From Sphingobacterium sp. (GTDB lineage: Bacteria > Bacteroidota > Bacteroidia > Sphingobacteriales > Sphingobacteriaceae): 64,000 bases of DNA. The stretch covers positions 1 through 64,000 of the forward strand of contig JALAGS010000116.1 of the NCBI GenBank assembly GCA_022712315.1. The letters are read 5' to 3'. The notes under the pieces are model-generated. The model ran no database searches, had not been told where the DNA came from, and saw only the letters and a program-made list of their open reading frames with translations. Position numbers and translations under genes: made by a program. Below are positions 8,002-57,958 of the stretch, one piece after another. Each line of letters starts with the position of its first letter. Within the stretch, counting starts at the first letter, position 1.

Positions 8002-8024
8002 AGATAATAACCAATTTGGGAAAT

Positions 8025-22842: not shown

Positions 22843-24429
22843 ATGATCAGAAAGCGCTATCATTGCGGAATAGTAATTGTTTTTCTTTGTTTATCCATGT
22901 TGGGTTTGCAAGCCCAAACTTGGCTAAATGTCACGGATTTTGGCGCGAGGAAAGACAGTACCGGAAGCAATACATTGGTAATCAAAAAAGCTATTGCAGC
23001 AGCTGCAAATAGAGGTGGGGGAACGATTTATTTCCCAGCAGGAAAATATATCACAGGACCAATTCATCTGAAAAGTAATATTACGATTCATATTGATGCT
23101 GGTGCTGAGTTACATTTTAGCGATAATTTTGATGATTATTTACCTATGGTAGAATCCAGGTGGGAAGGAACTGCTGTTACGAACTTTTCGCCATTATTTT
23201 ACGGGAATAACCTTGAGAATATTAGTATTCAAGGACGTGGGATCATTGACGGACACGGTAAAAAATGGTGGGGCTATTCGGAGGTTGAAGTTAAGAAACA
23301 GACTGAAGACAGTAAATGGCAAAAAGAATTTAAACGCCTCAATAAGGATGTTTTGGCTCCAGATCTTCCCGGATGGATCGAAAGAGGATTTTTACGTCCA
23401 CCGTTTATACAGTTCTTAAACTGTAAAAATATACAGATCAAAGATATTAAAATTCAGAATTCACCTTTTTGGACAATTAATCCACAATATTGTGATAACG
23501 TAACCGTGGATGGTGTGACTATAGACAACCCGCCGTCCCCTAACACCGATGGCATTAATCCAGAATCATGTTCCAATGTTCGCATCGCCAATTGCCACAT
23601 TAGTGTGGGGGATGACTGCATCACCATAAAATCTGGTAAGGATCGATCGGGAAGAAAGATCAATATCCCAGCAGAGAATTATACCATTACAAACTGTACA
23701 ATGCTTCGCGGGCATGGCGGGGTCGTTATCGGAAGTGAGATGTCGGGCGGAGTAAAAAATATTGTGATTTCCAACTGTATTTTCGATGGAACCGATCGCG
23801 GTATACGTCTAAAAACCGCCAGAGGTAGAGGCGGTGTGGTTGAAAATATTCAAGTATCTAATATTGTCATGCGCGACATTAGGGACCAAGCAGTCGTCAT
23901 GGATATGGAGTACGCTAAAAGTGAACAGGAGTCTATTAGTGAACGCACGCCTAAGTTCAGGAATATCTATATTAACAATTTATCTGGAACAACAAACCGT
24001 ATTGGTTATATAAGGGGCTTGGAAGAGATGCCTATAGAGAATGTGGTATTTTCGGATATTAATATGCAGGGAGTTACTGGTTTTTCAGCACTGAATGTGA
24101 ATGGGTTAACATTGAGTAACGTGAACGTATCGATCAAGCAAGGTGGCCTATTATCCGTCAATAATGGCAAAGAACTGAATCTATTAAATTTAAAAAACAC
24201 GACGCCAATAGCAGAAAAAGCGCTTATCGAGCTAGAAAACTGTAAAGAAGTTAATGTGCAGAGCTGTTTTCCTACTATAGGCACAGCACTATTTTTGGAC
24301 TTAGTTGGTTCTGCGAATGAATATATTTATGTTCATAGTAATAATCTAGCAAGAGTAAAACAAATTCTCCGTGGTACCTACAAAAGTGGTCAGCTCACAT
24401 CAAATATAAATCCTTTGGAAACTAAATAA
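22843..24429 (+). CDS. Glycoside hydrolase family 28, polygalacturonase/rhamnogalacturonan hydrolase type
   Basis: Exported right-handed parallel beta-helix enzyme, 528 residues, signal peptide IVFLCLSMLGLQAQ. The N-terminal VTDFGARKDSTGSNTLVIKKAI with GGGTIYFPAGKYITGPI is the common GH28 entry. All GH28 active-site motifs are present: NTDGIN (about 233), GDDC (about 255), GHGG (about 290) and GIRLKT (about 320). It hydrolyses galacturonosyl linkages with inversion. An exo-acting or rhamnogalacturonan-specific enzyme is likely in this setting, since the backbone lyases are encoded elsewhere in the locus. The stop overlaps the next start by 1 nt (TAATG). Confidence 0.95.
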   Translation: MIRKRYHCGIVIVFLCLSMLGLQAQTWLNVTDFGARKDSTGSNTLVIKKAIAAAANRGGGTIYFPAGKYITGPIHLKSNITIHIDAGAELHFSDNFDDYLPMVESRWEGTAVTNFSPLFYGNNLENISIQGRGIIDGHGKKWWGYSEVEVKKQTEDSKWQKEFKRLNKDVLAPDLPGWIERGFLRPPFIQFLNCKNIQIKDIKIQNSPFWTINPQYCDNVTVDGVTIDNPPSPNTDGINPESCSNVRIANCHISVGDDCITIKSGKDRSGRKINIPAENYTITNCTMLRGHGGVVIGSEMSGGVKNIVISNCIFDGTDRGIRLKTARGRGGVVENIQVSNIVMRDIRDQAVVMDMEYAKSEQESISERTPKFRNIYINNLSGTTNRIGYIRGLEEMPIENVVFSDINMQGVTGFSALNVNGLTLSNVNVSIKQGGLLSVNNGKELNLLNLKNTTPIAEKALIELENCKEVNVQSCFPTIGTALFLDLVGSANEYIYVHSNNLARVKQILRGTYKSGQLTSNINPLETK

Positions 24430-30904: not shown

Positions 30905-31519
30905 ATGCCTATGAAACGTTTTGCACTATTCACATTTTTATTTTTAAGTGTGTCTATGACATTTAGTCAAACAGAAGACACCTATTGGAAAACTATTACA
31001 GATCGGTCTGCAAAAATTGTAGCTAAACTAGGGTTAGCGGATCTGACCAAACAAGAAACAGTAGTTCACATTATTCGTGATCAGTATTATCTTTTAAATG
31101 CTTGTTATACACTTCGTGATTTAAAAATCAAGGAGAATACGGATAAGAGCTTAAAAGAGCAGATCACACGGGAGACGCTTCAAGAAACAACCAATTTAAA
31201 TCAAGCTTTTGTAAAACGACTAAAAGAAGTTTTAACAGATTCAGAAGTCGAAGCGGTTAAAAACGGTATGACTTATAATGTTTATCCGAATACCGTAAAG
31301 GCCTATCAAGATATGATTCCTCGCCTTACAAAAGACGAAGTGCATATGATTGACAGTTTGCTTTATGAGGCGCGCGATTTTGCGATGCAAGCTGAATCGT
31401 CGGAAAAAAAACACGCTTGGTTCGGTAAATACAAAGGCAAAATCAATAACTATTTAGCGTCTCATGGCTATAACCTAAAAGAAGAAGGCGATAAATGGGC
31501 TGCGAGATTAAAAAAATAA
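30905..31519 (+). CDS. DUF3826 family exported protein (first copy)
   Basis: 204-residue protein with the signal peptide RFALFTFLFLSVSMTFSQ. The rest is predominantly alpha-helical, with LTKQETVVHIIRDQYYLLN and a C-terminal LTKDEVHMIDSLLYEARDFAMQA...WFGKYKGKINNYLASHGYNLKEEG. These features match the DUF3826 family, found in pectin and hemicellulose utilization loci of Bacteroidota; function is unknown. It lies 13 bp before SusC, so it is made with the importer. A structural or accessory role in the SusCD complex, or a small enzyme, are both possible. A paralogue is encoded at 54677-55315. An ATG two codons further in (30911) is an alternative start. Confidence 0.8.
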   Translation: MPMKRFALFTFLFLSVSMTFSQTEDTYWKTITDRSAKIVAKLGLADLTKQETVVHIIRDQYYLLNACYTLRDLKIKENTDKSLKEQITRETLQETTNLNQAFVKRLKEVLTDSEVEAVKNGMTYNVYPNTVKAYQDMIPRLTKDEVHMIDSLLYEARDFAMQAESSEKKHAWFGKYKGKINNYLASHGYNLKEEGDKWAARLKK

Positions 31520-31532: not shown

Positions 31533-34500
31533 ATGAATACCCAAATTATGAATCAGCTCATATTCCCGAGTAAATCCTCTAAAAGGTTGGCACAACTGCT
31601 GGCTATTGGAATAATGACTGGCGGGATTATTCCGTCATACTCCTATGGAGTAAATTTAAGTGAACACAATTTAAATTTTTTTAAAAATATAACAGGAAAG
31701 GTCGTTGATCAAAATGGAAAACCGCTTGCCGGGGTAACGATTTCCATTAAAGGATCAAAAACTGCGACTTCAACGGATGCAGATGGTACGTTTAGGCTAA
31801 ACTTGCCCGCTGGAAATGAGATTTTAGTGCTCAATTTTGTTGGGTATAAAAAGTTGGAAGTTCCGGTTGGAAACCAAAATGTCTTAAATATACGGATGGA
31901 AGCCGAGAGCCAGGAACTTGAAGAAGTTATTACTGTTGGTTATACCACGCAGAAAAAAGCACATTTAACAGGCTCTGTTGTGGCAATAAAAGCGGAGGAG
32001 ATAGAAGATTTACCGACGACGAATATTGGTGCTGCGTTAGCGGGGCGTGTTACTGGATTAAGTGTCAGTGGCGGCAATACTCGACCTGGAACGAAAGCGG
32101 CTTTAACTATACGAAAACCGATGGGGCCAAGTAAAGACGGAGGAACAACAGATCCTTTGTACGTTATTGACGGGATGGTACAGGTTGATGGACAAAATCA
32201 ACCCGATGCAACATTGTTTGGAAATTTAGACCCTTCCGAAATTGAGAGTATATCTTTTTTGAAAGATGGAGCAGCTGCAGTTTATGGCGTACGAGGGGCA
32301 AATGGAGTCGTTTTGGTTACGACGAAAAGGGGAAAAGTAGGCACTCCTAAAATTAGCTACAATGGTTCCTATGCTATTAATGATGAAGCTTACCGAACAA
32401 AAATGATGGATGCTTATCAATATGGCATGTACTTCAATATCATGAATGGGCCAAATGGGAGCAATAGTGATCCAACAAAACCAGGCTTTGATAAATGGTT
32501 TTTTTCACAGGATGAGCTCGATTATTTTAAAAATCATTCCTACAACTGGTTGGACGATGCTTGGAAATCGAGTTATTTGACCAGACATTCCTTGAATATT
32601 TCAGGAGGAGCTGATAAAGCAACTTATTTTGCGAATGTTGCATACAGCAAACAAGACGGAAATTTAGGTACGCTCGACTATGATCGTTGGAACTTTAGGG
32701 CAGGTAGCGATATCCAAGTAGCAAGTAACTTTAAAGTTGGGATACAGGTGTCTGGGAACACGGGAAACCTACAAAAAACATTTAACAAAATTGGTGGCGA
32801 AAATGATGATAACGATTATCGTAATTTGTTGTTGGCTTCTCCCTATGTGCCAGCCTATGTGAATGGTTTGCCAGTTCGACTACCAGGGACATCAGGAGAT
32901 CTATCAGCCTATCATTATTTTGAATTGCAAAAGCTTGGTAATCTGGCAACGTCAGACACCCGTCAATTCAGTATCAACTTAAATGGAGAATATCGTGCTC
33001 CATGGCTTGATGGGTTGGTTTTACGCGGATCTTACAATCGAAATTTGAAAAATGATAGAGGTACCCAAATAGGTACAAAATACCAAACTTATACCTTTAC
33101 GAGAGCGGGTGACAATGGACATATCTATGATCTTGCTACAGATCCGAAAGCAGTTACTTTTAGTAATGGTAACAGAGTTTATTTTTCGAATGCGGCAGGC
33201 AGCAACTATCAGGTAAATTTTACCGCTACCTATGATAAACAATGGAAAAAACATAATTTCTCTGGATTATTTTCTGTTGAAAAAGCCGAGGCTAATAGTT
33301 CACAAGAAGATGTTTGGAAAGACGATCCTTTGGCAACAACGAATGGCCAATTTAACACCGCTTTTGGAGCGGTGAGTGGTCGTACGGCAGCTTATGAATC
33401 AGGAACACTAGGTTATGTGGGACGTTTGAACTATCGTTATGGTAATAAATATCTTGGGGAGATTTTGTTTCGTTCAGATGCGTCAACAAAATTTGCTCCG
33501 GAGAATTACTGGGGAAATTTTTACAATGTTTCTGCAGGTTGGGTGATCAGTGAAGAAAGCTTTTTTCATTCAAAGGCGATTGATTATTTGAAGTTACGCT
33601 TGTCTCATGGTAAGCTAGGTAATGACCAGACTGCTGCCTGGGGATGGTTACAACGCTACACTTATCAGCAGGGAAAAGGTGGTGTTTTTGGTGAAAATAA
33701 TAATTCCATCGATGCGAGTACTGGCTTAAAAATGGAAAAATCTCCGAATAGAAATGCGACTTGGGCCAATGAATATAAAAATAATATTGGTATTGATGCG
33801 CGGTTTCTAGATAGTCGATTATCTGCAACAGTCGATGGCTATTACAACAAAGGCTATGATCTTTTAGTAATAAGAACAGGGAATATTCCTGTTTCAGTTG
33901 GGGGATCTGTAGCGGCAGAAAATTATGGACGTAAAAATACCTTCGGCTATGAGTTTGAATTAGGTTGGCAAGATAAAGTTAATGAGTTTAACTATGGCAT
34001 TAGCACTCGCTTTTCTTGGTCTAATGATAAGGTTATATTGGGCGATTTTAATGATATTGACGCTCTATCCCCATGGAAAGCACATCCGAATGGGCCGTCT
34101 GACAATGGTGCCTGGGGATATGATTATTTAGGGATGTTTAAAACGCAACAGGATATTGATAATTATATAAGTCAATACAATATTACACAAGTATTTGAGG
34201 AGACTGTTGATAAGCTTAGACCAGGTATGCTTTATTACCGAGATGTCCGTGGTGCACTCCAGGCGGACGGTACATTTGCGGGGCCAGATGGGATTATCAA
34301 TGAAAATGACCAAATACAATTAGCCAAAAATAGTACAAACCATTACGCATTAGGCATGACTTTTAAAGCGGGTTATAAAGGATTTAGTGCCGAGGCTGTA
34401 TTGACTGGATCCTTTGGTGGATATGCTGAAATTACTGAACGGAATAAACTGAATAACGATATTTCGCGTGTTTATACCAATCTTCCAGTTATTTGGGGAA

Positions 34501-34811
34501 ATATCTACGATCCAGATCTTAATCCTACGGGTACAATGCCGAACCCACAATGGTCTGATATTTATAACCGAGTATCTAATTTTTGGTCGGTTCCAGCTTT
34601 TCAGATGCGTATGAGTAGTTTCAATATAGGTTATAGATTACCTGAAAAACTGGTGAAATATCTGAAAGTAGCCAATGCTCGTGTGTATGCCAGCGCAATG
34701 AATCCTTTAACTATCTATAATCCATTTAAATATAAGGATGGTAATGGAGCTGCTTGGGATACATATCCAAACTTGCGCACGTATTCTTTTGGTGTAAATG
34801 TAACATTATAA
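31533..34811 (+). CDS. SusC-type TonB-dependent outer membrane transporter
   Basis: Outer membrane importer of oligosaccharides, powered by TonB and working with the SusD lid protein encoded next. 1092 residues. After the signal region comes a carboxypeptidase-D-like regulatory domain (about 53-130: ITGKVVDQNGKPLAGVTISIKG). The TonB box region is LEEVITVGYTTQKKAHLTGSV and the plug starts NIGAALAGRVTGLSVSGGN, with SIEFLKDGAAAVYGVRGANGVVLVTTKRGK-type SusC signatures. The remainder is a beta-barrel ending in the aromatic LRTYSFGVNVTL. No STN domain precedes the regulatory domain, so ECF sigma/anti-sigma signalling through this protein is unlikely. Substrate is inferred as a pectic oligosaccharide from the neighbours. 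Confidence 0.97.
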   Translation: MNTQIMNQLIFPSKSSKRLAQLLAIGIMTGGIIPSYSYGVNLSEHNLNFFKNITGKVVDQNGKPLAGVTISIKGSKTATSTDADGTFRLNLPAGNEILVLNFVGYKKLEVPVGNQNVLNIRMEAESQELEEVITVGYTTQKKAHLTGSVVAIKAEEIEDLPTTNIGAALAGRVTGLSVSGGNTRPGTKAALTIRKPMGPSKDGGTTDPLYVIDGMVQVDGQNQPDATLFGNLDPSEIESISFLKDGAAAVYGVRGANGVVLVTTKRGKVGTPKISYNGSYAINDEAYRTKMMDAYQYGMYFNIMNGPNGSNSDPTKPGFDKWFFSQDELDYFKNHSYNWLDDAWKSSYLTRHSLNISGGADKATYFANVAYSKQDGNLGTLDYDRWNFRAGSDIQVASNFKVGIQVSGNTGNLQKTFNKIGGENDDNDYRNLLLASPYVPAYVNGLPVRLPGTSGDLSAYHYFELQKLGNLATSDTRQFSINLNGEYRAPWLDGLVLRGSYNRNLKNDRGTQIGTKYQTYTFTRAGDNGHIYDLATDPKAVTFSNGNRVYFSNAAGSNYQVNFTATYDKQWKKHNFSGLFSVEKAEANSSQEDVWKDDPLATTNGQFNTAFGAVSGRTAAYESGTLGYVGRLNYRYGNKYLGEILFRSDASTKFAPENYWGNFYNVSAGWVISEESFFHSKAIDYLKLRLSHGKLGNDQTAAWGWLQRYTYQQGKGGVFGENNNSIDASTGLKMEKSPNRNATWANEYKNNIGIDARFLDSRLSATVDGYYNKGYDLLVIRTGNIPVSVGGSVAAENYGRKNTFGYEFELGWQDKVNEFNYGISTRFSWSNDKVILGDFNDIDALSPWKAHPNGPSDNGAWGYDYLGMFKTQQDIDNYISQYNITQVFEETVDKLRPGMLYYRDVRGALQADGTFAGPDGIINENDQIQLAKNSTNHYALGMTFKAGYKGFSAEAVLTGSFGGYAEITERNKLNNDISRVYTNLPVIWGNIYDPDLNPTGTMPNPQWSDIYNRVSNFWSVPAFQMRMSSFNIGYRLPEKLVKYLKVANARVYASAMNPLTIYNPFKYKDGNGAAWDTYPNLRTYSFGVNVTL

Positions 34812-34896
34812 CGGAAAATAAACTGTCCAAGACAAACTAAAGATAATTTGATTGTATGGTCAGCTCCATCGAATGATGGAATAAAATTATATACAA

Positions 34897-36927
34897 ATGA
34901 AAAAAATATCAATATTGAATATAGCATTAGTATGCCTACTCTTGACAAATCAAGCTTGTAAGGATAATTTTCTAGAAGAGAAAACGGACTTAGCCGCTGT
35001 CAAAGAGGATGATGTATTCAAAGATCCCATTTTGGCGCGTGCATATGTGGATTATGTTTACGGTTTGTTTTTGCCGCCAAATAATGCGCAAACATTTGTG
35101 GCGACGCAAGATGCGTCTGAAAATGGAGGGTATAGCAATACATTTACCCAAACTACAGATGAATTGGCGGGAGAAACGGATTATAACAAAAAATGGAATA
35201 CAATCTCTTATATTAATAATCATGCTAATAAATATTTTGGTCAACGAATGTCAGCAAGCGTAGGAAATAACGTTTGGACCAGAATGAAGGAGATCAATGT
35301 TTTTTTAGAAAAAATCGATCAAGGGGGAATTGACGAGGCAACGCGAAACCAAATGAAAGGTCAACTATATTTCTGGCGCGCATTTCAGTACTTTCAACTG
35401 GTTCGGATGTATGGCGGTGTGCCTTTAGTATTAAGTTCACAGACGCCCGTTGTCGGAAATAATGAAGAGAATTCTATTCAAAGGAGCAGCACTGCGGAGT
35501 GTATCGCCCAAATTGTAAAAGACTTAGACATGGCAAAGAGCCTTTTGCCAGGAAAATGGGATGCCGCAAATTGGGGTCGTATTACAAGTGGGGCGGCAGC
35601 TGCATTAAAGGGACGCGTTTTGTTAACCTATGCTAGTCCGCAATTTAATCCAAACGATTCCCGTGATCGGTGGCAAGCTGCATATACGGCCAATTTGGAG
35701 GCGAAAAATTTGTTGGAGCAAAATGGCTTTGGTTTATTTCAGAATGGTGGCACAGCGAATGGTAAAGCTTGGGCTGACTTGTTTTTAACCGAAGGCAGTG
35801 CAAATCCGGAGGCGGTAATAGTTTATGGATTTAACAATTTAACTTCAACAAGTGGAGCTGTTAAAAATAACGGTTGGGAACAAGTGGTTAGACCTCGTGC
35901 CCTTTCCGGCTCGGGGTCTATTTCCCCTACTAAACAAATGCTGGATGCATTTCCAATGCTAGATGGGAGAAGTATAGATGATCCATCATCTGCTTATAGT
36001 TACGATAAACAAAAGTTCTATAAAAATAGGGATCCACGATTTTCAAAGACATTTGTATTTAACGGCGCGCTTTTTCCATATGGGAGTGGTAGCGAATATC
36101 GCCAGTGGACTTATTATTGGAAGAATAAAAAAGGAGCCTATATTTCTACCGAAACCCAAGGTGCTAATGCCAGCGGTATTTATTTGAAAAAAGGTGCTGA
36201 TCCAAAAGCTTCTGGAACATCAAATGGTGCAGCAGGTTTCCAACAAAGTGGAACTGATTTTATTGAATTACGCTTTGCGGAAGTGATATTGAATTTAGCT
36301 GAATCGGCTATTGGGTCAGATAAATTAACAGAGGGGCTTGCTGGAATTATTGAGATTCGTAAGCGTGCTGGGCTTGAGGATAAGGATGGATCGTACGGTT
36401 TAAGTGCTGCGGTAGGGAACAGAAATAAGTTATTTGGGGCGGTGATTAATGAGCGTAGATTAGAGTTCGCTTATGAAGGGAAACGGTTCTACGATCTAAG
36501 GAGATGGAAGCTTTTCGAGGCAGACTCTCCTACTGCGCAAAGGATAGGGGTAAAACCATTGAATGGCACAAGGCGCACAGGGCTATTAATTACTGTGAAA
36601 AGCAATGGAATGGATTATGTTGGTGATCTAGATCCGTTATTAAGGGATAGTAAAAACGGTGTGCCAGTAATCGAGCGCCAGCCTGCATCATATCCACCTG
36701 GAATTGCAAATCAAGATGAATATTTGGATTATTTATACGACAATTACTTCACTATTGCAGAAAAAGATGATTTGGACCCTACAAATGGAGCATGGACCTT
36801 CACCTGGTATCCACAATATTATTTCTTTGGACTAAACCAGACGATCTTATCTACCTCACCTTATTTACAACAAACTACAGGTTGGGATAGCATGAATGGA
36901 GCAGGAACTTTTGATCCACTAAAATAA
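34897..36927 (+). CDS. SusD/RagB-family surface glycan-binding lipoprotein
   Basis: Cell-surface lipoprotein that captures glycans and caps the SusC barrel. The signal ends in CLLLTNQACKDNF (lipidated Cys about residue 21). SusD hallmarks are the helical TPR-like scaffold (YFWRAFQYFQLVRMYGGVPLV), ELRFAEVILNLAESA and NERRLEFAYEGKRFYDLRRWKLF near the C-terminal third. At 676 residues it is longer than the usual 500-600, with extra length in the region after residue 400, perhaps for a large branched ligand. It is 85 bp after SusC and is followed by a strong hairpin. Confidence 0.96.
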   Translation: MKKISILNIALVCLLLTNQACKDNFLEEKTDLAAVKEDDVFKDPILARAYVDYVYGLFLPPNNAQTFVATQDASENGGYSNTFTQTTDELAGETDYNKKWNTISYINNHANKYFGQRMSASVGNNVWTRMKEINVFLEKIDQGGIDEATRNQMKGQLYFWRAFQYFQLVRMYGGVPLVLSSQTPVVGNNEENSIQRSSTAECIAQIVKDLDMAKSLLPGKWDAANWGRITSGAAAALKGRVLLTYASPQFNPNDSRDRWQAAYTANLEAKNLLEQNGFGLFQNGGTANGKAWADLFLTEGSANPEAVIVYGFNNLTSTSGAVKNNGWEQVVRPRALSGSGSISPTKQMLDAFPMLDGRSIDDPSSAYSYDKQKFYKNRDPRFSKTFVFNGALFPYGSGSEYRQWTYYWKNKKGAYISTETQGANASGIYLKKGADPKASGTSNGAAGFQQSGTDFIELRFAEVILNLAESAIGSDKLTEGLAGIIEIRKRAGLEDKDGSYGLSAAVGNRNKLFGAVINERRLEFAYEGKRFYDLRRWKLFEADSPTAQRIGVKPLNGTRRTGLLITVKSNGMDYVGDLDPLLRDSKNGVPVIERQPASYPPGIANQDEYLDYLYDNYFTIAEKDDLDPTNGAWTFTWYPQYYFFGLNQTILSTSPYLQQTTGWDSMNGAGTFDPLK

Positions 36928-40428: not shown

Positions 40429-43400
40429 ATGAGTAAAAGAATACTGTTCTTTTCTTGTCTCGGACTATATGCCTTCATCTGTACTGCACATGCACAACAA
40501 ATGAAGGCATATAGTCCTTTGGTATGGGATGAGGGAAAGTTTGTTTACCATGCGGATTCGCTTGGAAACCAAATTCCTGATTTTTCCTATGCAGGATATA
40601 AAGGAGGCAACGAAGCTATTCCTACAGGACAGATTGCTGTCGTTGTTCCTGTAAAATCAGGTGATGCGACGCAACGAATACAAGCTGCCATTAACTATGT
40701 GTCAATGCTACCGTTGGGTAAAGATGGATTACGAGGAGTGGTGCTTTTACAAGCGGGAGTTTATTCTGTTTCCGGTTCTCTTAAAATAAGTGCCTCAGGT
40801 GTTATTCTGCGTGGTAGTGGTTTCACAACAAATGGAACTGTCATCATTGGTGAAGGAACAACAAGAGAAACACTCATCCGTATTCTCGGAAAAGACAATA
40901 TCACGTTTGCAAAAAAGACAAACGTAACAAGTGCTTACGTCCCTGTCAACGCGCGGGTATTGGATATTGATCATGCAGCTTCCTATAAAGCTGGAGATAA
41001 AATTAGGATTACAAGACCTTCCACGCAAGATTGGATTAATCAGCTTGGCACCGGTCATTTCGGCGGCGGGATCACTTCTTTGGGTTGGAAGCCTGGGCAA
41101 CGTGATGTTCATTGGGATAGAACGATTGTCGCTGTGAAAGGCAATCGTATCGAGATCGACGCCCCAATCACAACGGCCTTGGATAAACATTACGGTCAGG
41201 CGACCGTCGAACGATATACTTGGAAAGGAAGAATCGAAAATGTCGGTATAGAAAATATTGCACTTAAATCTGCTTTCGATGCTAATAACCCGAAAGACGA
41301 AGACCATCGCTGGATGGCGATTACTATTGAAAATGCGGAAAACGTATGGGTGCGCCGCATGCAGTTTCAGCATTTCGCAGGATCAGCCGTTTACGCTTTA
41401 GCAAGTACCCAAAAATTAACTGTTGAGGATTGTATTTCTCGGGACCCGGTGTCAGAAATCGGTGGCCAAAGAAGATATACTTTTTTCACAAAGGGGCAAC
41501 AGACCTTATTTCAGCGGCTTTATTCTGAGCAGGGATATCATGATTTTGCAGTGGGCTACCTGGCAGCAGGGCCAAATGCTTTTGTCCAATGCCAAGCAGT
41601 AGAGCCTTTCAGTTTCAGTGGTGGAATAGACAGCTGGGCGTCGGGAGTTCTTTTTGACAATGCAGATATAGATGCGCAGGCACTAAGCTATAAAAACAGA
41701 GGTCAAGATGGTCAGGGAGCTGGCTGGTCGGCAGCAAATTCTGTATTTTGGCAATCGACAGCTGGACTTGTAGAGTGTTACCAACCGCCAACCGCGCAGA
41801 ACTGGGCCTTTGGCATTTGGTCTCAATTTCAGGGAAATGGTTATTGGGAGCAATCTAATGAATACATTAAGCCCAAAAGTTTGTATTATGCCCAGTTGCG
41901 CGAAAGGATTGGCCCGGCTGCTGATGAGCGGGCGGTACTGTTGCCGGTGCTGACTGAAGCGTCCAGTAGTCCGCCCGTCAGTGTTGCCATGGAGTTGACG
42001 AAACAATCGATAAACCCAATGATGGAGCTGGTTGATTTTATTACTGAGGCGAACAAGCGTTATACCTTAAATACCACGGCAACTAAGGTAAAAACCATTG
42101 ATCAGATTGATTATAAAGAGCTCATTCCTCCGAAAAAACAAGCTGATATGCGTGTCGTGAACGGTTGGTTGGTACGAGGCGATGAAGTACTCGTGGGAGC
42201 GAAATCGGATGTGCCCTGGTGGAATGGTAGCGCTCGCCCATATGGCGCCGAGAAAGCAAAACCACATATCACCCGCTATGTCCCTGGAGAAATTGGCAAT
42301 GGGCTCACCGATGACCTGGATGCCATGACCGATAGCATGCTTCAAAACAATGTATTGGCTATTGATCACAACTACGGACTGTGGTATGACCGCCGCAGGG
42401 ACGACCACGAGCGTATCCGTCGGATAAATGGGGAGGTGTGGCCTCCGTTTTATGAATTGCCATTTGCACGTAGTGGTCAGGGGTTAGCCTATGACGGCCT
42501 GTCTAAGTATGATTTGACAAAGTACAACAAATTTTACTGGGGACGCTTGAAACAATATGCAGATCTAGCAGACCAAAGAGGTTTGGTATTGCTGCATCAA
42601 AATTATTTTCAACATAATATTATCGAAGCTGGTGCACATTATGCGGACTTCCCATGGCGTGCAGCTAATAATATCAATAATGTCGGATTTCCAGAACCGG
42701 TTCCTTATGCTGGTAATAAACGAATTTTCATGGCAGAACAGTTCTACGATATCGATAACCCTGTTCGTCGTTCATTACATCGCGCTTATATCCGTCAATG
42801 CTTGGATAACTTTAAAGATAACTCGGGAGTCATTCAGATGATCAGCGCGGAATATACGGGACCCTTACATTTCGTTCAGTTTTGGGTCGACGTAATCAAA
42901 GAATGGAAAGTGGAGACAGGTAAAAATCCAATTATTGGTTTGAGTGCAACAAAAGATGTACAAGATGCTATTTTAGCCGATAAAGAACGTGCTAAAGAAA
43001 TTCAGGTCATTGATATCCGCTACTGGTATTATCAAGCCGATGGAAAGAGCTATGCTCCCCAAGGTGGGCAAAATCTGGCGCCGCGTCAGCATGCACGATT
43101 GTTGAAACCAAAGAAAACATCGATGGAGGCCGTTTATAAAGCCGTATCCGAATACCGCACAAAATATCCTGATAAAGCAGTATTATACTTTGCTGACAAC
43201 TACCCAACGATGGCTTGGGCATCTTTTATGGCAGGTGGTTCTATGGCAAACCTACCTAAGATAGGAAACAACGATTTCTACCGTGCAGCATCGGCGATGA
43301 AAGCGACAGAAATCAATGGCGCCTTGTTGCTAAAAGGTAGCCAAGGTCTGATCATTTATAAGGAAAAATCTGATGCAGCAGATATTGATCTATCCGATTA

Positions 43401-43539
43401 TAAAGGTGGTTTTGAAATGACACGCATTAATCCGAAAAACGGAACGATTATCAAAATAGAGAAGATCAATCTCGGGAAGCATATTCATTTGAGCAATTAT
43501 ACAAAAGAGCCAGAAATTATTTGGCTAAATAAGAAATAA
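40429..43539 (+). CDS. Beta-helix plus TIM-barrel-like fusion protein (DUF6298-like), function unknown
   Basis: 1036-residue exported protein (signal peptide ILFFSCLGLYAFICTAHAQ). The first half (about 55-490) reads as a right-handed parallel beta-helix: IQAAINYVSMLPLGKDGLRGVVLLQAGVY, SGVILRGSGF, ENVGIENIALKS, ENVWVRRMQFQHFAGSAVYAL. These resemble pectate lyase/GH28-type folds but lack their catalytic signatures. The second half (about 620-1000) looks like a hydrolase barrel: NVLAIDHNYGLWYDRRRDDHERI, YWGRLKQYADLADQRGLVLLHQNYFQHN, VIQMISAEYTGPLHFVQFWVDVIKEW, IGLSATKDVQDAIL. SAEYTG (Glu about 805) is a candidate catalytic site. The second half resembles the DUF6298 domain to my recollection. 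It lies 5 bp before GH140, so a role on the same substrate is expected. Confidence 0.75.
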   Translation: MSKRILFFSCLGLYAFICTAHAQQMKAYSPLVWDEGKFVYHADSLGNQIPDFSYAGYKGGNEAIPTGQIAVVVPVKSGDATQRIQAAINYVSMLPLGKDGLRGVVLLQAGVYSVSGSLKISASGVILRGSGFTTNGTVIIGEGTTRETLIRILGKDNITFAKKTNVTSAYVPVNARVLDIDHAASYKAGDKIRITRPSTQDWINQLGTGHFGGGITSLGWKPGQRDVHWDRTIVAVKGNRIEIDAPITTALDKHYGQATVERYTWKGRIENVGIENIALKSAFDANNPKDEDHRWMAITIENAENVWVRRMQFQHFAGSAVYALASTQKLTVEDCISRDPVSEIGGQRRYTFFTKGQQTLFQRLYSEQGYHDFAVGYLAAGPNAFVQCQAVEPFSFSGGIDSWASGVLFDNADIDAQALSYKNRGQDGQGAGWSAANSVFWQSTAGLVECYQPPTAQNWAFGIWSQFQGNGYWEQSNEYIKPKSLYYAQLRERIGPAADERAVLLPVLTEASSSPPVSVAMELTKQSINPMMELVDFITEANKRYTLNTTATKVKTIDQIDYKELIPPKKQADMRVVNGWLVRGDEVLVGAKSDVPWWNGSARPYGAEKAKPHITRYVPGEIGNGLTDDLDAMTDSMLQNNVLAIDHNYGLWYDRRRDDHERIRRINGEVWPPFYELPFARSGQGLAYDGLSKYDLTKYNKFYWGRLKQYADLADQRGLVLLHQNYFQHNIIEAGAHYADFPWRAANNINNVGFPEPVPYAGNKRIFMAEQFYDIDNPVRRSLHRAYIRQCLDNFKDNSGVIQMISAEYTGPLHFVQFWVDVIKEWKVETGKNPIIGLSATKDVQDAILADKERAKEIQVIDIRYWYYQADGKSYAPQGGQNLAPRQHARLLKPKKTSMEAVYKAVSEYRTKYPDKAVLYFADNYPTMAWASFMAGGSMANLPKIGNNDFYRAASAMKATEINGALLLKGSQGLIIYKEKSDAADIDLSDYKGGFEMTRINPKNGTIIKIEKINLGKHIHLSNYTKEPEIIWLNKK

Positions 43540-43543
43540 CAAC

Positions 43544-44944
43544 ATGTCTATTCGTAAGAAACTTATACTATTTACAGTTGCAGGAGCACTTTTTTCGTGT
43601 ACGTCCAATAAAGAGGCGAAGCACCCTACACTTTTGAAAATTTCGGAAAACGGTAGGTATATCATGACCGAAGATGGGAAACCTTTCTTTTGGCTGGGCG
43701 ATACGGGCTGGTTGCTTTTCAACAAGATGAACCGGGCGGAAGCGGAGCAATACCTGGAGGATCGGAAACAAAAAGGTTTCAATGTCATCCAGGCCATGGT
43801 CCTGCATACCGTTCCTTCCGTAAATAGTTATGGTGATTCTTCGCTTGTCAACAAAGATATTTCGAGACCGCTTGTGACCGAAGGGAACAATCCGGATAAT
43901 GCAACAGCGTATGATTATTGGGATCATGTCGATTACATTATTGATAAGGCAGCTGAAAAGGGACTCTATGTTGCTTTGGTCCCGGTTTGGGGATCACCGG
44001 TGAAGGATGGAAAAGTATCAGCTGAGCAAGCAGAAAAATATGCCACATTTCTTGCGGAAAGGTGGAAAGACCGTCCGAATATCATTTGGTTAAATGGTGG
44101 TGATATTAAGGGATCAGATAAGATGGAAGTGTGGGAGAAAATCGGCCAAACAATAAAATCCATCGATCATAACCATTTAATGACTTTTCATCCTAGAGGA
44201 CGAACGGCTTCTTCGGATTGGTTCCACGATAGACCCTGGCTGGATTTCAATATGGTGCAATCTGGACACCGTACCTACGCTCAGGACACTTCCGCGAATG
44301 AACAGAAACATTATGGCGAGGATAACTGGAAGTTTATGGCAGCCGACTGGGATATAAAACCCATTAAACCAACGATCGACGGGGAACCTTCTTATGAAGG
44401 CATCCCACAGGGATTACACGATATCACCCAACCGCGCTGGAAAGATGCTGACGTCAGAAGATATGGCTATTGGTCTGTATTTGCTGGTGCATTTGGTTAT
44501 ACCTATGGGCAAAACTCGGTCATGCAGATGCATGGGAAGCAAGATTCCACCTCGGCCTATGGTTCGGATGAGCTATGGAGTTCGGCAATCAATGCGCCGG
44601 GTGCGTCCCAAATGAAATTTTTGAAGGAGCTTATGCTGTCAAGAGACAATTATTTTGATCGTGTTCCCGATCAGTCTTTAATTGCGGATAATGGTGATAA
44701 ATACAATCGTTTACTAGCGACAAGAACTGGGAATTACGCATTTATCTACAATTACAACGGTAGGGAAATGAAAATTAATATGGGAAAAATCAATGGGGAC
44801 AAAGTAAAAGCGTCCTGGTTTGATCCCCGAAATGGGTCGACCAAAGTGATCGGAGAGTTTGAAAATAAAGGTGTACAAACTTTTGTACCTGAGGGAGGAC
44901 AAAAAGATGGAAACGACTGGGTATTGATCTTAGATAGCATTTAA
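43544..44944 (+). CDS. Glycoside hydrolase family 140 (apiosidase type), lipoprotein
   Basis: 466 residues with a lipobox (VAGALFSCTS, Cys about 19). The DUF4038-type barrel begins GRYIMTEDGKPFFWLGDTGWLLFNKMNRAEAEQYLEDRK. The catalytic pair reported for the B. thetaiotaomicron apiosidase BT1012 (Asp and Glu near 187 and 284) is matched by WLNGGDI (about 186) and TIDGEPSYEG (about 280). A C-terminal beta-sandwich (YAFIYNYNGREMKINMGKI) is the usual collagen-binding-like domain. GH140 cleaves apiose linked to galacturonic acid at the base of rhamnogalacturonan II side chains A and B, the strongest pointer in the window to rhamnogalacturonan II or another apiosylated pectin. The stop overlaps the next start by 1 nt. 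Confidence 0.92.
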   Translation: MSIRKKLILFTVAGALFSCTSNKEAKHPTLLKISENGRYIMTEDGKPFFWLGDTGWLLFNKMNRAEAEQYLEDRKQKGFNVIQAMVLHTVPSVNSYGDSSLVNKDISRPLVTEGNNPDNATAYDYWDHVDYIIDKAAEKGLYVALVPVWGSPVKDGKVSAEQAEKYATFLAERWKDRPNIIWLNGGDIKGSDKMEVWEKIGQTIKSIDHNHLMTFHPRGRTASSDWFHDRPWLDFNMVQSGHRTYAQDTSANEQKHYGEDNWKFMAADWDIKPIKPTIDGEPSYEGIPQGLHDITQPRWKDADVRRYGYWSVFAGAFGYTYGQNSVMQMHGKQDSTSAYGSDELWSSAINAPGASQMKFLKELMLSRDNYFDRVPDQSLIADNGDKYNRLLATRTGNYAFIYNYNGREMKINMGKINGDKVKASWFDPRNGSTKVIGEFENKGVQTFVPEGGQKDGNDWVLILDSI

Positions 44945-45873
44945 TGAGGAATTTGGTCAAATTGTTTATTTTATTTAGTGTGGCATCGATCTTGGCTTCC
45001 TGTCAGCGGGATGTTTACCTATTTACCTCGTTCCACGAACCCGCCAATGAAGGTTTGCGCTATCTGTATAGCAAAGATGGCTACCATTGGAGTGCGATTA
45101 ATGGGGTTTATTTAAAACCAAAATTAGGAAAACAGAAAATCATGCGCGATCCGTCGATGATACGGGATAAACAAGGTATTTATCATTTGGTATGGACCAT
45201 TGGTTGGCAGGGAAATGAAGGAATCGGCTACGCACGTTCAAAAGACTTGATCCATTGGGAAAATCAACAGATTGTTCCAGTGATGCAACAAGAAGCAACC
45301 ACCGTCAATGTTTGGGCGCCAGAGTTATTTTATGATGATATAGAAGACCGGTTTATTATTATTTGGGCTTCCACCATTCCTTATCGCTTCGCAAAAGGCG
45401 TAGAAGAAGAGAAAAACAATCACCGCATGTACTATACGACAACAAAGGATTTTAAATCCTTTACGGAGACGAAATTATTTAGCGATCCGGGCTTTAGTAT
45501 CATTGATGCGGTCATTGTCAAAAAAGAGCAAAAGGATTATGTGCTTGTATTAAAGGATAATACGCGGCCCAATCGAAATCTAAAGGTAGCCTTTGCGAAA
45601 AATCCGTTGGGGCCATTTCAGCAGATATCTGAGCCTTTCTCGCCGTATTTAAGTGAGGGACCTGCGGTGCTTAAAGTCAAGGATCAATGGTTAATCTATT
45701 TCGATTCATATGGTAGCAAAAGCTATGAGGCTGTGTCCACCAAAGATTTTAAGGTCTTCGAAAAAATCAACGACAAGATTTCCGTTCCAGAAGGGCATAA
45801 ACATGGAACGATCTTCAAAGCGTCCAATAAAGATTTAAAAAATTTGCTTCGGGATGAAGCCAAAAAGAAATAA
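44944..45873 (+). CDS. Glycoside hydrolase family 43-like lipoprotein
   Basis: 309-residue five-bladed propeller with lipobox ASILASCQRD (Cys about 20). VYLFTSFHEPANEGLRYLYSKDGYHW is the GH43 first blade, IMRDPSMIRDKQGIYHLVWTIGW has the central Asp, VWAPELFYDD follows, and the region SEGPAVLKVKDQWLIYFDSYG has the Glu that replaces the more usual EAP context. It is short and domain-pure. Arabinofuranosidase action on rhamnogalacturonan II or arabinogalactan side chains is likely because GH43 enzymes sit beside GH140 in B. thetaiotaomicron loci, but the activity is not proven. It is coupled to GH140 (TAATG) and to the next gene (1 nt). Confidence 0.87.
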   Translation: MRNLVKLFILFSVASILASCQRDVYLFTSFHEPANEGLRYLYSKDGYHWSAINGVYLKPKLGKQKIMRDPSMIRDKQGIYHLVWTIGWQGNEGIGYARSKDLIHWENQQIVPVMQQEATTVNVWAPELFYDDIEDRFIIIWASTIPYRFAKGVEEEKNNHRMYYTTTKDFKSFTETKLFSDPGFSIIDAVIVKKEQKDYVLVLKDNTRPNRNLKVAFAKNPLGPFQQISEPFSPYLSEGPAVLKVKDQWLIYFDSYGSKSYEAVSTKDFKVFEKINDKISVPEGHKHGTIFKASNKDLKNLLRDEAKKK

Positions 45874-45874
45874 T

Positions 45875-47707
45875 ATGACGATCAAATCAGTATTAGTCAG
45901 TCTATCGCTGGCTGCTGCCGTGCAACAGGTGGTAGCACAGCAAGACACGGTACGGTATATAGGAAAGACATTATCCAATGTGGATTATCACCATGGACAG
46001 CTGACACCTGCTGTGGGTACGCACAATATCCAGGTATTTCGAGCAAACAGAGAATTTCCTGAATTGGCCGGCGGACATCACTTTACCTATAACCATCAGC
46101 CTTTCTTAGCGTATTGGAATGATACTTATTATTTACAGTTTCTGAGCAATCCTGTGGGGGAGCATATCGCGGAAGGAAAAACCTTGTTGTTAACATCAAA
46201 AGATGGTCGCAATTGGTCCAGCCCTATAGATCTATTCCCTACTTATCTGGTTCCAGAAGGCTTTACCAAGCCGGGACGAACTGATAAGGCCGGAAAAAAC
46301 CTGTATGCAATCATGCACCAGCGTATGGGCTTTTATCATGCAAAGAATGATAAATTGCTGACGCTTGCTTATTACGGTGTAGCCCTGGATGCCAAGGACG
46401 ATCCAAATGATGGGAATGGTCTTGGACGTGTCGTCCGGGAGATCCACAAAGATGGTAGCTTTGGGCCAATCTATTTTATTCACTTCAATGCCTCTTTCGA
46501 TGAGAAGGGTGCCAAATATCCTTTTTATAAAAAGAGCAAGGATAAGGCCTTTATACAAGCTTGTGACGAATTGCTGGGCACGCCACTCATGATGCAGCAA
46601 TGGGTAGAGGAGTCCGATCGAAACGATCCATTAATTCCTTTGCAGCGTCCGGTAAAAGCGTTTTCCTTTTATCATCTCAATGATGGAAGGGTCGTCGGTT
46701 TATGGAAGCATGCATTGACATCGGTGAGCAAGGACAATGGAAAAACCTGGCAATACTCACCGTTGCGCGCCCCCGGATTTGTGAACAGCAATGCAAAAAT
46801 CTGGGGACAAAAAACATCCGATGGGCGCTACGCAACAGTGTATAACCCATCGGAATTCAGATGGCCCCTAGCCGTATCAACCAGCAATGATGGTTTGAAC
46901 TATACCGATTTGTTATTGGTTAACGGTGAGATCACCACAATGCGTTATGGCGGTAACTATAAGTCTTATGGACCGCAATATGTTCGTGGTATCGTCGAAG
47001 GAAATGGCATGGTTCCCGATCGTAACATGTGGTTGACGTACAGTATGAACAAAGAAGATATTTGGACTGCTGTTGTACCTGTTCCGATCATTTCTACCGT
47101 AGAAGAGGCCGTGAACGATGATTTTTCGAAAAATGAAGGACAAGCCTATAACAACTGGAATATTTATAGTCCATTGTGGGCAAGTGCCAAGGTTGAAGGA
47201 AAAGCGTTGGTCTTGCGTGATAAAGATCCTTTTGACTATGCGAAGGCAGATCGTGTGATTCAATCGGCACAAAAAGGCACCATTGAATTTACCGTAACGC
47301 CACAACAAAATGATCATGGCTCTTTACAGATTGAGTTGGTGAATGATAGTGGCTTAGCAGCTGCGAGAATTATTATGGATAAAGATGGCATTATAAAAAA
47401 TAAAGCCGGGTACCGAAATGCTTCGTTGACGAAATATGAGGAGGGAAAAACGTATCACTTTGCATTGACTTTCGATGTGAGCACCCGCTCTTATCAAGTT
47501 GCCATTAACGGAGAGGATAAAGGGACAAAGTTATTTTTCCAACCGGTAAGTAATGTGAGCAAAGTGTCGTTCCGTACAGGCGATGTCAGAAGGTTTCCCA
47601 ATGCGGATACGGAAACAGATCAGGACTTTGATGTCGAAAATGCGGGAGCTTCGGTAAAAGAAGCCACTTATCAGATTACTTCGTTGAAAGCTCAAAAGCT
47701 GAAATAA
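45875..47707 (+). CDS. Exported beta-propeller protein with C-terminal lectin-like domain, family unassigned
   Basis: 610 residues after choosing the ATG at 45875, which directly follows the GH43 stop; the ORF track start lies 7 codons into that gene. The signal peptide is LVSLSLAAAVQQVVAQ. Residues about 35-400 carry sialidase/BNR-like blades (LLLTSKDGRNWSSPIDLFP, SVSKDNGKTWQYSPLR, VSTSNDGLNYTDLLLV). The last 190 residues look like a concanavalin-type sandwich (IEFTVTPQQNDHGSLQIELVND, YHFALTFDVSTRSYQVAINGEDKG). Sialic acid is not a plant sugar, so a keto-deoxy sugar such as Kdo or Dha, both in rhamnogalacturonan II, or another acidic residue is a possible target. Binding without catalysis is also possible. 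Confidence 0.75.
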   Translation: MTIKSVLVSLSLAAAVQQVVAQQDTVRYIGKTLSNVDYHHGQLTPAVGTHNIQVFRANREFPELAGGHHFTYNHQPFLAYWNDTYYLQFLSNPVGEHIAEGKTLLLTSKDGRNWSSPIDLFPTYLVPEGFTKPGRTDKAGKNLYAIMHQRMGFYHAKNDKLLTLAYYGVALDAKDDPNDGNGLGRVVREIHKDGSFGPIYFIHFNASFDEKGAKYPFYKKSKDKAFIQACDELLGTPLMMQQWVEESDRNDPLIPLQRPVKAFSFYHLNDGRVVGLWKHALTSVSKDNGKTWQYSPLRAPGFVNSNAKIWGQKTSDGRYATVYNPSEFRWPLAVSTSNDGLNYTDLLLVNGEITTMRYGGNYKSYGPQYVRGIVEGNGMVPDRNMWLTYSMNKEDIWTAVVPVPIISTVEEAVNDDFSKNEGQAYNNWNIYSPLWASAKVEGKALVLRDKDPFDYAKADRVIQSAQKGTIEFTVTPQQNDHGSLQIELVNDSGLAAARIIMDKDGIIKNKAGYRNASLTKYEEGKTYHFALTFDVSTRSYQVAINGEDKGTKLFFQPVSNVSKVSFRTGDVRRFPNADTETDQDFDVENAGASVKEATYQITSLKAQKLK

Positions 47708-54676: not shown

Positions 54677-55315
54677 ATGAAAAAGGTCTTATCAATTTTT
54701 ATACTAAGTCTACTGCTGAGGAGCCTGTATGCGCAGGACAATACAACGGAGCAGAAAAAATCGCAGGAGTGGACTGCAGAGCTCAAGCTTGCCAATCCGG
54801 CAAAAGAAGAAAAGATCAAAAGCCTGATCTTGAGTCATCTGATAGCCGTGAAAGAGTGGCACAATAGCCATCCGATTATTACTGTTCCAGCAGGAATAAA
54901 TCCGTACACGGGCGAAAAATTAAGTGATATAGACCGTTCCATTATTGCAGATTCAGCGCAGCCCGATTCTATACACAACAACTTGATGGCTGGTTTGCGT
55001 CAAGAGCTTGAAGAGCAACAGGTTGCTTTTATCTTGGACAAATACACGATCGGAAAAGTTGATTTCACCTTAAAAGGATATAAGGCAATTGTCCCAGATC
55101 TGACAGCAGTTGAGGAACAGACCATCCGTAAAAATTTAGAAGAAGCCCGCGAAAAAGCAATAGATTATAAAGGGATTAAGCAAGTTTCTGCCATTTTTGA
55201 AATTTACAAAAATAAATGTGAGGCTTACTTAAATGCCAACGGCCGCAACTGGCGTCAATTATTCAAAGATTATGTGGCAAAGGTAAAAGCCGAAAAAGAA
55301 AAGCAACAGAAATAG
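54677..55315 (+). CDS. DUF3826 family exported protein (second copy)
   Basis: 212-residue protein, signal peptide LSIFILSLLLRSLYAQ. Helical throughout, with PAKEEKIKSLILSHLIAVKEWHNSH, EELEEQQVAFILDKYTIGKVDFTLKGYKAIVPDLTAVEEQTI and a basic C-terminus. The pattern parallels the first copy at 30905: a Thr/Gly-containing strand, then P-x-L-T followed by acidic helix and a Y-L-x-x-x-G segment. Function unknown. It is 4 bp after GH78, far from SusC, which argues against an obligate role in the importer and favours an enzyme or binding protein acting with the exo-hydrolases. Two copies in one locus are unusual. Confidence 0.78.
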   Translation: MKKVLSIFILSLLLRSLYAQDNTTEQKKSQEWTAELKLANPAKEEKIKSLILSHLIAVKEWHNSHPIITVPAGINPYTGEKLSDIDRSIIADSAQPDSIHNNLMAGLRQELEEQQVAFILDKYTIGKVDFTLKGYKAIVPDLTAVEEQTIRKNLEEAREKAIDYKGIKQVSAIFEIYKNKCEAYLNANGRNWRQLFKDYVAKVKAEKEKQQK

Positions 55316-55416: not shown

Positions 55417-56565
55417 ATGAAGATAAAGATCAAATTGGCAACAGCCCTATTGTTTTTATGCTCCTTGAGTTCTTACGGACAAAATCCGACATTAAAAGAA
55501 TGGCAAAAAGGGGTCATAAAAGATGAGTTTATTTATGATACCGCATCTTTCCCTTCCTGTCATTCCGCTACCATGGCAGAGACCGATCAAGGTTTGGTTT
55601 ATGCCTTTTTTGGTGGAACGAAAGAACGTCATCCCGATGTGGAGATCTATGTGAGTAGATTTGAAAACGGCAACTGGTTAGCGCCGGTGTCGGCAGCGGA
55701 TGGTGTACAACCGGATGGCAAGCGCTTGCCGACCTGGAACCCAGTTTTATATCAAATACCTAACGGAGATCTCTTGTTATTCTATAAAATTGGGCCTAAA
55801 CCATCGGAATGGTGGGGCATGCTCAAACGCTCCAAAGATGGCGGTAAGACCTGGTCTGCTGCCGAAAAGTTGCCTGAGGGCTTTATTGGACCGGTGAAAA
55901 ATAAGCCTGTTCTTTTGCAAAATGGCACCTTGCTGAGTCCTTCAAGCACCGAAGGAAATGGTTGGAACGTACATTTTGAGGCGAGTTCGGATTTTGGTAA
56001 GACCTGGCGTAAAATAGGGCCGATTGCCCGTGGCGCAGATAATCTGGATGCCATACAACCGAGCATACTTGACCACGGAAATGGTCAGTTGCAAATATTA
56101 GCGCGCACACGCAACCGTGCGGTTGTGACATCCTGGTCAAAGGACTGGGGTGAGCACTGGACCCCACTGGAAAAAACGACGCTCCCCAATAATAATTCGG
56201 GTACGGATGCTGTAACGCTAAAAGACGGACGGCATGTATTGGTGTATAACCACGTGCTTCCGGAAGGTAACTTAGCCAAAGGGGCGCGTACACCATTGAA
56301 TGTGGCTTTTTCCAAAGATGGCAAGCAGTGGCAGGCCGCACTTATACTCGAGGATTCGCCAATCAGTCAGTATTCTTATCCTGCAGTGATTCAAACGAAA
56401 GATGGGCTACTGCATTTTGGCTACACCTGGCGTAGAAAGAAAATGAAACATGTCGTCGTAGATCCGAAGAAAGTGAAATTAATCCCAATTGAGGACGGCA
56501 TCTGGCCAACAAAAAAAGGATATAAAAAACCAGACCCTAATGCATATGTTAAGGAAGAAGATTAA
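55417..56565 (+). CDS. Sialidase-fold (BNR) exo-glycosidase-like protein
   Basis: 382 residues, signal peptide KLATALLFLCSLSSYGQ. The mature part is a six-bladed propeller of the neuraminidase superfamily. It contains FPSCHSATMAETDQGLVYAFFGGTKERHPDVEIYVSRF, two Asp-box repeats (SKDGGKTWSAAEKL, SSDFGKTWRKIGP), IQPSILDHGNGQLQILARTRN with the arginine-bearing strand, and SYPAVIQTKDGLLHFGYTWRRKKMKHV. Classical bacterial sialidases start from the FRIP motif, which is absent. In a plant-pectin locus the target is more likely rhamnose-, uronate- or Kdo-type residues than sialic acid; proteins of this type are common in rhamnogalacturonan loci. It overlaps the next gene by 20 bp if that gene starts at 56546. 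Confidence 0.8.
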   Translation: MKIKIKLATALLFLCSLSSYGQNPTLKEWQKGVIKDEFIYDTASFPSCHSATMAETDQGLVYAFFGGTKERHPDVEIYVSRFENGNWLAPVSAADGVQPDGKRLPTWNPVLYQIPNGDLLLFYKIGPKPSEWWGMLKRSKDGGKTWSAAEKLPEGFIGPVKNKPVLLQNGTLLSPSSTEGNGWNVHFEASSDFGKTWRKIGPIARGADNLDAIQPSILDHGNGQLQILARTRNRAVVTSWSKDWGEHWTPLEKTTLPNNNSGTDAVTLKDGRHVLVYNHVLPEGNLAKGARTPLNVAFSKDGKQWQAALILEDSPISQYSYPAVIQTKDGLLHFGYTWRRKKMKHVVVDPKKVKLIPIEDGIWPTKKGYKKPDPNAYVKEED

Positions 56566-57958
56566 GTTCGTCTGTGCAGTCTGCTTGTTTTTTGTCTCGC
56601 TTGTTGTCCAGGGGCAGGACAGCTTACTCAATTATGAACATAAATTTAAGCAACCCCTGGAAAAAGTTCTGGCAATGATGCAAGAACGGTATCAGGTCAA
56701 GATCAAATATGATCCACGCAATGTCAAAGACATTATGGTGGACTACGCACCTTGGAAGTTTAGGGCAGATCTTGTGGGCACAGAAATCAATTTGCTGTAT
56801 CCCTTGGGTTTTAAACTGCAGGAGGAAGCCAAGCCCGATACCTACAAATTAAAATCATACGAATATAACCGCTGGAAACCACAGGAGGGTTGGGATTTTT
56901 TGAGCTTACTGTCCAACAAATATACGGATCAGGCAAGTTGGGAAAAGAGAAAAGATCAATTGCGTGTTGCGTTGAGACAAGCGATGTACTGGGATAAGCT
57001 GCAAAGTATACCGAATCAACCCATTCGATTGGGCAAGGTACGTCGCTATGCGGATTACCAAGTTCAGAATTTTGCCTTAGAAATTATACCGGGAGTCTAT
57101 ATCAATGGCAGTATCTATTCGCCGCTCAAGCAAAAGAAAAATATACCAGTGGTGCTCTCTCCTGATGGCCATTGGCCACAGCAGCGTTATCGTTCGGACG
57201 CGCAGAAGAGATTTATCACCTTGGCTCGACTGGGCTGTATGGCTGTAAGCTATGACCTATTTGCCTGGGGCGAATCCCTATTACAGTTTGCGTCAACGGA
57301 CCATCGCAGCAGTGAGGCTATGTTGATGCAGACCTGGGGTGCAGCACGTATTTTAGATTATGTCATGAGTTTACCACAGATCGATCGAAGCAGGATAGGC
57401 ATTAGTGGCGGATCGGGTGGGGGTAGCCACAGTATTTTAATGGCTGCTTTAGACGATCGCTTTACGTTGGTCGCCCCTGTCGTGGCAATGTCCTCCTACT
57501 TCTTTGGTGGCTGCCCCTGTGAGAGTGGACTGCCCGTACATTTTGTCCGTGGCGGGACCAATAATGTCGAACTGGCTGCGATGACAGCGCCCAAACCACA
57601 GCTGATCATCTCCGATGGACAGGATTGGACGAAGGAGACCGCTATTAACGATTTTCCATACCTGCAACATATTTATGGTTATTATGGGCAGCAAAATCAG
57701 GTGCAACACGCACATTTCCCCGATGAAGGTCATGATTTTGGCTATAACAAAAGGCAGGCACTCTACAAATTCCTGCTCGATCATTTTCATTTAGATCAAG
57801 CTAAAGCTACCGATATCATCGCGGAGACCGGTATTCAGATCGAGCCGGAGGAATTATTATACAGTTTTGGAAAGAAGGGGGAAAACTTACCAAAAAACGC
57901 GATTCGTGGGATGGAACAATTGAAAGCATTGTTAAAATCATATCAGATTGAACTATGA
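56546..57958 (+). CDS. STN-like domain fused to an exported alpha/beta-hydrolase esterase
   Basis: About 470 residues from the ATG at 56546; ATG 56540 is equally possible, whereas the ORF track start lies far inside the previous gene. After the signal peptide (FVCAVCLFFVSLVVQGQ), residues about 30-105 form a beta-alpha-beta unit resembling STN/secretin short domains (FKQPLEKVLAMMQERYQVKIKYDP, then MVDYAPWKFRADL). The alpha/beta-hydrolase part has NIPVVLSPDGHWPQQRYR, the nucleophile Ser in RIGISGGSGGGSH (about 287), PKPQLIISDGQDWT and the His in FPDEGHDFGYN (about 395). It resembles acetylxylan/dienelactone-hydrolase esterases of Bacteroidota. A pectin acetyl- or methylesterase role is inferred. 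Its stop overlaps the next ATG (ATGA). Confidence 0.83.
   Translation: MLRKKIKFVCAVCLFFVSLVVQGQDSLLNYEHKFKQPLEKVLAMMQERYQVKIKYDPRNVKDIMVDYAPWKFRADLVGTEINLLYPLGFKLQEEAKPDTYKLKSYEYNRWKPQEGWDFLSLLSNKYTDQASWEKRKDQLRVALRQAMYWDKLQSIPNQPIRLGKVRRYADYQVQNFALEIIPGVYINGSIYSPLKQKKNIPVVLSPDGHWPQQRYRSDAQKRFITLARLGCMAVSYDLFAWGESLLQFASTDHRSSEAMLMQTWGAARILDYVMSLPQIDRSRIGISGGSGGGSHSILMAALDDRFTLVAPVVAMSSYFFGGCPCESGLPVHFVRGGTNNVELAAMTAPKPQLIISDGQDWTKETAINDFPYLQHIYGYYGQQNQVQHAHFPDEGHDFGYNKRQALYKFLLDHFHLDQAKATDIIAETGIQIEPEELLYSFGKKGENLPKNAIRGMEQLKALLKSYQIEL

Follow-up and report, generated by a model that had tools for sequence, protein, structure and literature searches.

A reading frame in a Sphingobacterium sp. 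contig raises the question of why a secreted esterase carries, at its N-terminus, a small domain that resembles the STN fold of TonB-dependent transducers, and what such a domain does there. The gene is located in a 64,000-nt stretch of contig JALAGS010000116.1, referred to as a whole as the window. The initial annotation had described an STN-like domain at residues ~30-105 ahead of a secreted alpha/beta-hydrolase with an intact GGSGGGS nucleophile elbow, and had proposed that the domain docks the esterase to another periplasmic or outer-membrane protein or binds the polymer. The domain was recovered by AF2 modelling with Foldseek, by hhalign and by a search of 295 genomes, and the elbow is present, with Ser290 as the nucleophile. 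The coordinates of all features are given in Table 1.

The first 20 bp of the esterase gene are shared with the 3' end of the gene before it (55417-56565). The ORF and its start are considered sound, since the same 20-bp overlap is found in other Sphingobacterium genomes. A broken or mis-started ORF was ruled out, as the reading frame is conserved in these relatives as well. The protein is secreted and probably periplasmic.

Table 1 Features of the window that bear on the esterase and its locus
Feature	Position	Strand	Evidence
Second stand-alone DUF3826 protein, adjoining SusC	30905..31519	+	Pfam PF12875, E 2e-52
SusC/SusD pair	31533..36927	+	Pfam
Apiosidase (GH140), RG-II marker	43544..44944	+	Pfam Apiosidase, E 1.8e-119; PDB 3kzs/5msy, E 2.4e-147
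BT_1020-like protein, RG-II marker	45854..47707	+	Pfam PF24067, E 1.6e-115
Stand-alone DUF3826 protein	54677..55315	+	Pfam PF12875, E 1e-66
CE19-type esterase ORF	56546-57958	+	ATG start, 470 aa
Esterase signal peptide, residues 1-23 (approximate)	56546..56614	+	by eye, MLRKKIKFVCAVCLFFVSLVVQG|QD
STN-superfamily (FecR_C/STN-like) domain, residues ~31-105, by predicted fold	56636..56860	+	AF2 and Foldseek; hhalign with controls; 295-genome profile search
CE19-type alpha/beta-hydrolase catalytic domain, residues 112-470	56879..57955	+	phmmer to 6goc; full-length model against 6goc
Catalytic nucleophile Ser290 (BT1017 Ser282)	57413-57415	+	6goc alignment; conserved in 37/37 sequences
Cys323-Pro-Cys325, two of the four zinc ligands	57512..57520	+	6goc alignment; invariant in 37/37
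Catalytic Asp360 (BT1017 Asp352)	57623..57625	+	6goc alignment; conserved in 37/37
Catalytic His396 (BT1017 His388)	57731..57733	+	6goc alignment; conserved in 37/37

A phmmer search of the PDB sequences matched residues 28-462 of the esterase to 6goc, the structure of Bacteroides thetaiotaomicron BT1017 (E 1.1e-122). The esterase is an ortholog of BT1017 across both domains, with homology over the catalytic module. BT1017 is the founding member of family CE19, a pectin methylesterase required for the use of rhamnogalacturonan-II (RG-II) (PMC7939467, PMC10483417), and was the sole functionally characterised CE19 enzyme in a 2023 survey (PMC10483417). The enzyme type, the crystal structure and the two-domain architecture (‘domain 1’ of BT1017) are already known; the initial annotation had been unaware that a fusion of an STN-like domain with an esterase exists in a solved structure.

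The triad of BT1017 consists of S282, D352 and H388, with S282 as the catalytic nucleophile (PMC7939467). By alignment, the zinc ligands C315, C317, H201 and H244 of BT1017 correspond to C323, C325, H209 and H253, and all seven residues of triad and zinc site are invariant in the 37 sequences compared. By our own count, H201 is one position out of step with the offset that otherwise links the paper's numbering to the PDB chain. A full-length AF2 model gave a 443-column alignment with 6goc (E 2.4e-41, TM 0.76, rmsd 6.4 A). It was not used for placing the N-terminal domain relative to the active site because of this rmsd, a shallow alignment and weak loops.

The window is an RG-II utilisation locus, the setting that is typical of the BT1017 branch. 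Besides the two marker genes and the SusC/SusD pair, it encodes GH95, two GH28, two GH78, two GH2, GH43 and an acetylesterase (SASA). In the GH95 protein (24429-27227), the match to the N-terminal GH65N_2 domain is split in two, and a GH2-type sugar-binding domain (residues 154-237) is apparently inserted into it. A 1036-aa protein (40429-43539) consists of an N-terminal half without a domain name followed by DUF6298 (residues 471-957); in L095, too, a relative adjoins the apiosidase gene.

BT1017 and the Sphingobacterium esterase share an STN-fold domain 1 followed by the alpha/beta-hydrolase, the triad, the zinc ligands and the type of locus. They differ in DUF3826: BT1017 carries it as a C-terminal fusion (PMC7939467), whereas here it is encoded by separate genes. 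DUF3826 sequence also follows the esterase in a 660-aa frame of L021/L092 and in an 852-aa frame of L009. Since both parts form a single polypeptide in Bacteroides and in L021, the comparison points to a possible joint action of the esterase and the stand-alone DUF3826 proteins in these loci. L009 (positions 4579-8502, from an Alistipes genome) contains two tandem esterase genes of the family, the second of them in the 852-aa frame with two DUF3826 stretches.

To characterize the N-terminal domain, residues 24-112 were folded alone with AF2, with nine relatives in the alignment; this covers the segment 30-110 for which structure prediction and Foldseek had been proposed. The model has a mean pLDDT of 83.6 and a pTM of 0.73. 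The order of its elements is b1-a1-b2-(short helix)-b3-a2-b4-b5, and it contains the two beta-alpha-beta repeats by which the STN fold is defined (PMC7186176). In a Foldseek search of the PDB, rank 1 was 6GOC (E 2.8e-5), and ranks 2-28 were exclusively STN or secretin-N0 domains. These include FecA (2d1u; TMq 0.63, rmsd 2.1, probability 1.00, E 3.4e-3), the STN domain of PupR (6ovm; TMq 0.65, TMt 0.71, rmsd 1.8), PupB (9cuv), FpvA (2iah), LspD, a Parabacteroides anti-sigma factor, and XcpQ, EscC and GspD, whose N0 domains were ranked after the STN domains of FecA, PupR, PupB and FpvA. With these four, the esterase domain shares the fold of two beta-alpha-beta units at a probability of 1.00 and a TM of 0.61-0.65. 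For a domain of this size, modest E-values are to be expected (0.003 to 1.4 for the STN and N0 matches); the weight of the result lies in the consistency of the list and in probabilities of 0.9-1.0 near its top.

At the sequence level, the domain is named by neither a plain Pfam nor an NCBIfam scan. Pfam STN (PF07660) gave no match at E <= 10, and hence none reaching its cut-off, for the protein or the domain alone. FecR_C matched the esterase below threshold (E 0.0034 for the protein, 0.0039 for the domain alone) and 7/10 family members, again below its cut-off (best E 6.7e-5). A profile of the domain found nothing above chance among the PDB sequences except 6goc; because the sequence-profile search reaches no further, the link to STN required structure and profile-profile comparison. 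For the latter, a profile of 27 domains was compared by hhalign to 20 FecR_C domains from the same genome and to 20 STN domains. The probability was 90.7 (score 35.8) for FecR_C and 69.2 (score 28.6) for STN. None of 100 column-shuffled controls equalled the real scores (top scores 25.0 and 17.6, respectively), and the probability did not exceed 1.8 for the reversed profile or 0.5 for nine catalytic-domain slices. The FecR_C domain of Bacteroidota FecR proteins (PF16344) is the closest by profile similarity, which is weak but controlled.

The domain profile was also run in an open search against the six-frame translations of 295 genomes, and nine of the non-esterase matches were annotated with Pfam. 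Two of these proved to be FecR anti-sigma factors that contain FecR_C. The other seven carry a carboxypeptidase-regulatory domain, in six cases with a TonB-dependent-receptor plug domain, and in the TonB-receptor-like matches the domain profile falls at the N-terminal STN position. A tenth match (L121) lies in a frame with stops. Model, profile comparison and genome search agree that residues ~31-105 are, by predicted fold, a separate domain of the STN superfamily.

The relatives of the esterase form two groups, one with the domain (27 sequences in the tree and, in addition, L111) and one without it (10 sequences; L013 and L029-L037). In the latter, homology begins at about residue 110, directly behind the signal peptide. 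Their catalytic domain, triad and zinc ligands are the same, but they lack an STN-like domain, lie outside RG-II loci and are separate from the STN-bearing clade. That the N-terminal segment lies outside the esterase core, as the initial annotation implied, is borne out by this branch; a segment that forms part of the hydrolase core was ruled out, since the active site is kept in its absence.

A phylogenetic tree was built on the catalytic domain alone. A single branch separates all 27 domain-bearing sequences from the 10 domain-less ones, with a support of 81/99 and in 100% of 200 bootstrap trees. The BT_1020-like family is present in 16/16 genomes with the domain and within 15 kb of the esterase in 15 of them; the exception is G270, where the distance is 174 kb. 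Where larger stretches were compared, apiosidase, BT_1020-like, GH78, GH2, GH43, GH95 and GH28 families are found near the domain-bearing esterases. None of these families was found within ~10 kb of the domain-less relatives, whose neighbours are unrelated, and the BT_1020-like marker occurs in one of their nine genomes, on another contig. As the tree needs a single change, the association with RG-II counts as one evolutionary event rather than sixteen independent ones. The change was apparently a gain of the domain rather than a loss. In L011 and L012, the domain-bearing esterase lies beside a rhamnosidase-like gene, with no recognisable RG-II marker within 6 kb. The L011 contig belongs to a Lachnospiraceae MAG, while its esterase groups with Muribaculaceae; it is possibly a mis-binned Bacteroidota contig.

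A role for the domain is suggested by BT1017, whose domain 1 is described as a globular alpha/beta layer and as ‘what appears to be a flexible cap’ (PMC7939467). The contact of the cap with the active site is taken from that description of BT1017. There, R101 and R245 are placed on a basic surface outside the active site (PMC7939467). By alignment, R101 maps to the end of the STN-like domain and R245 to R254; the counterpart of R101 is R109 or W110, uncertain by one residue owing to the numbering offset at H201. Most relatives keep R48, R73 and R109 of the domain, but the branch of L022-L026 and L028 has lost or altered them, as in part have L019, L020 and L027, so any substrate-binding role for them may not be universal.

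The available text of the BT1017 paper does not give domain 1 the name STN, and ‘Stn’ occurs in it solely as part of StnA, a different enzyme (PMC7939467). No publication joining an STN domain with such an esterase, none on a ‘secretin and TonB’ domain with a carbohydrate esterase and none on an STN domain with polysaccharide utilization, was found in the open literature, in which few subscription journals are covered. What appears to be new is the recognition of the BT1017-type lid as an STN fold and the finding that it is confined to the RG-II clade.

On balance, we consider it fairly probable that the esterase is a BT1017-type RG-II methylesterase whose STN-superfamily domain was acquired once, caps the active site, helps to select RG-II and has no function in signalling. 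The enzyme would strip methyl esters from uronic acids of RG-II in the periplasm, and their removal would let glycosidases proceed. Release of methanol from methylated RG-II uronic acids was demonstrated for BT1017 (PMC7939467). Catalysis would proceed via the Ser290-Asp360-His396 triad beside the zinc site (Cys323, Cys325, His209, His253). The N-terminal 75 residues were apparently gained by the ancestor of the branch associated with RG-II, with a TonB-dependent receptor or a FecR-type anti-sigma factor as the possible donor. As a lid over or beside the active site, the domain may help to choose the branched substrate. An active-site cap for RG-II is its likeliest role, rather than an outer-membrane dock, and the earlier suggestion of polymer binding sits nearer to such a cap.

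It is unlikely that the domain is a structural relic or stabiliser that aids folding or secretion and takes no part in substrate choice. It evolves faster than the full-length protein, with an identity to more distant relatives of 22-38% as compared to 38-53% for the whole protein, and the domain-less relatives retain the full active site, both of which would fit such a role. Against it, all sampled esterases of the RG-II branch keep the domain, even where its identity drops to 22%, and it is confined to this branch.

Rather improbable is a tethering of the esterase to the uptake machinery, in which the domain would bind a TonB-dependent receptor, an STN-bearing anti-sigma factor or SusC/D. 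Transducers and anti-sigma factors do bind one another through their STN domains: the N-terminal signalling domain (NTSD) of PupB binds PupR with a Kd of 0.69 uM, and the STN subdomain of PupR is part of the binding region (PMC7186176). The 21 STN and 39 FecR_C matches in this genome could provide partners. However, the 183-kb contig of the locus is devoid of any STN or FecR_C family match, Pfam finds no STN domain in the SusC of the locus, and in BT1017 the domain is described as capping the enzyme to which it belongs (PMC7939467). STN signalling domains are attached to a TonB-dependent barrel or an anti-sigma factor and have a cognate partner, whereas the present one is fused to a soluble esterase, falls under the Pfam cut-offs and lacks a signalling partner within the locus. 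These findings do not support the initially proposed docking to a protein of the outer membrane or periplasm; the one positive sign for docking to other proteins is the fold. It is very improbable that the domain has kept its protein-binding function and anchors the periplasmic esterase to a TonB-dependent receptor or anti-sigma factor that bears an STN domain and is encoded at another place in the genome; if true, this would couple the de-esterification of RG-II to uptake or to the control of genes.

An acetyl or glucuronoyl esterase in place of a methylesterase is highly improbable, as the Pfam matches to GCE_fung (6.2e-8) and AXE1 (6.9e-7) around the nucleophile span just 50-60 residues at the elbow, compared to 435 residues at 1e-122 for BT1017, which is inactive on acetylated RG-I and on 4-nitrophenyl acetate (PMC7939467).

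With the domain as a cap, the unnamed lid of the only solved CE19 enzyme would be explained as a reused receptor-signalling fold that was gained or lost a single time in the family and tracks with RG-II degradation. This raises a testable question, namely whether an STN domain may serve as a substrate-selecting lid in an enzyme.
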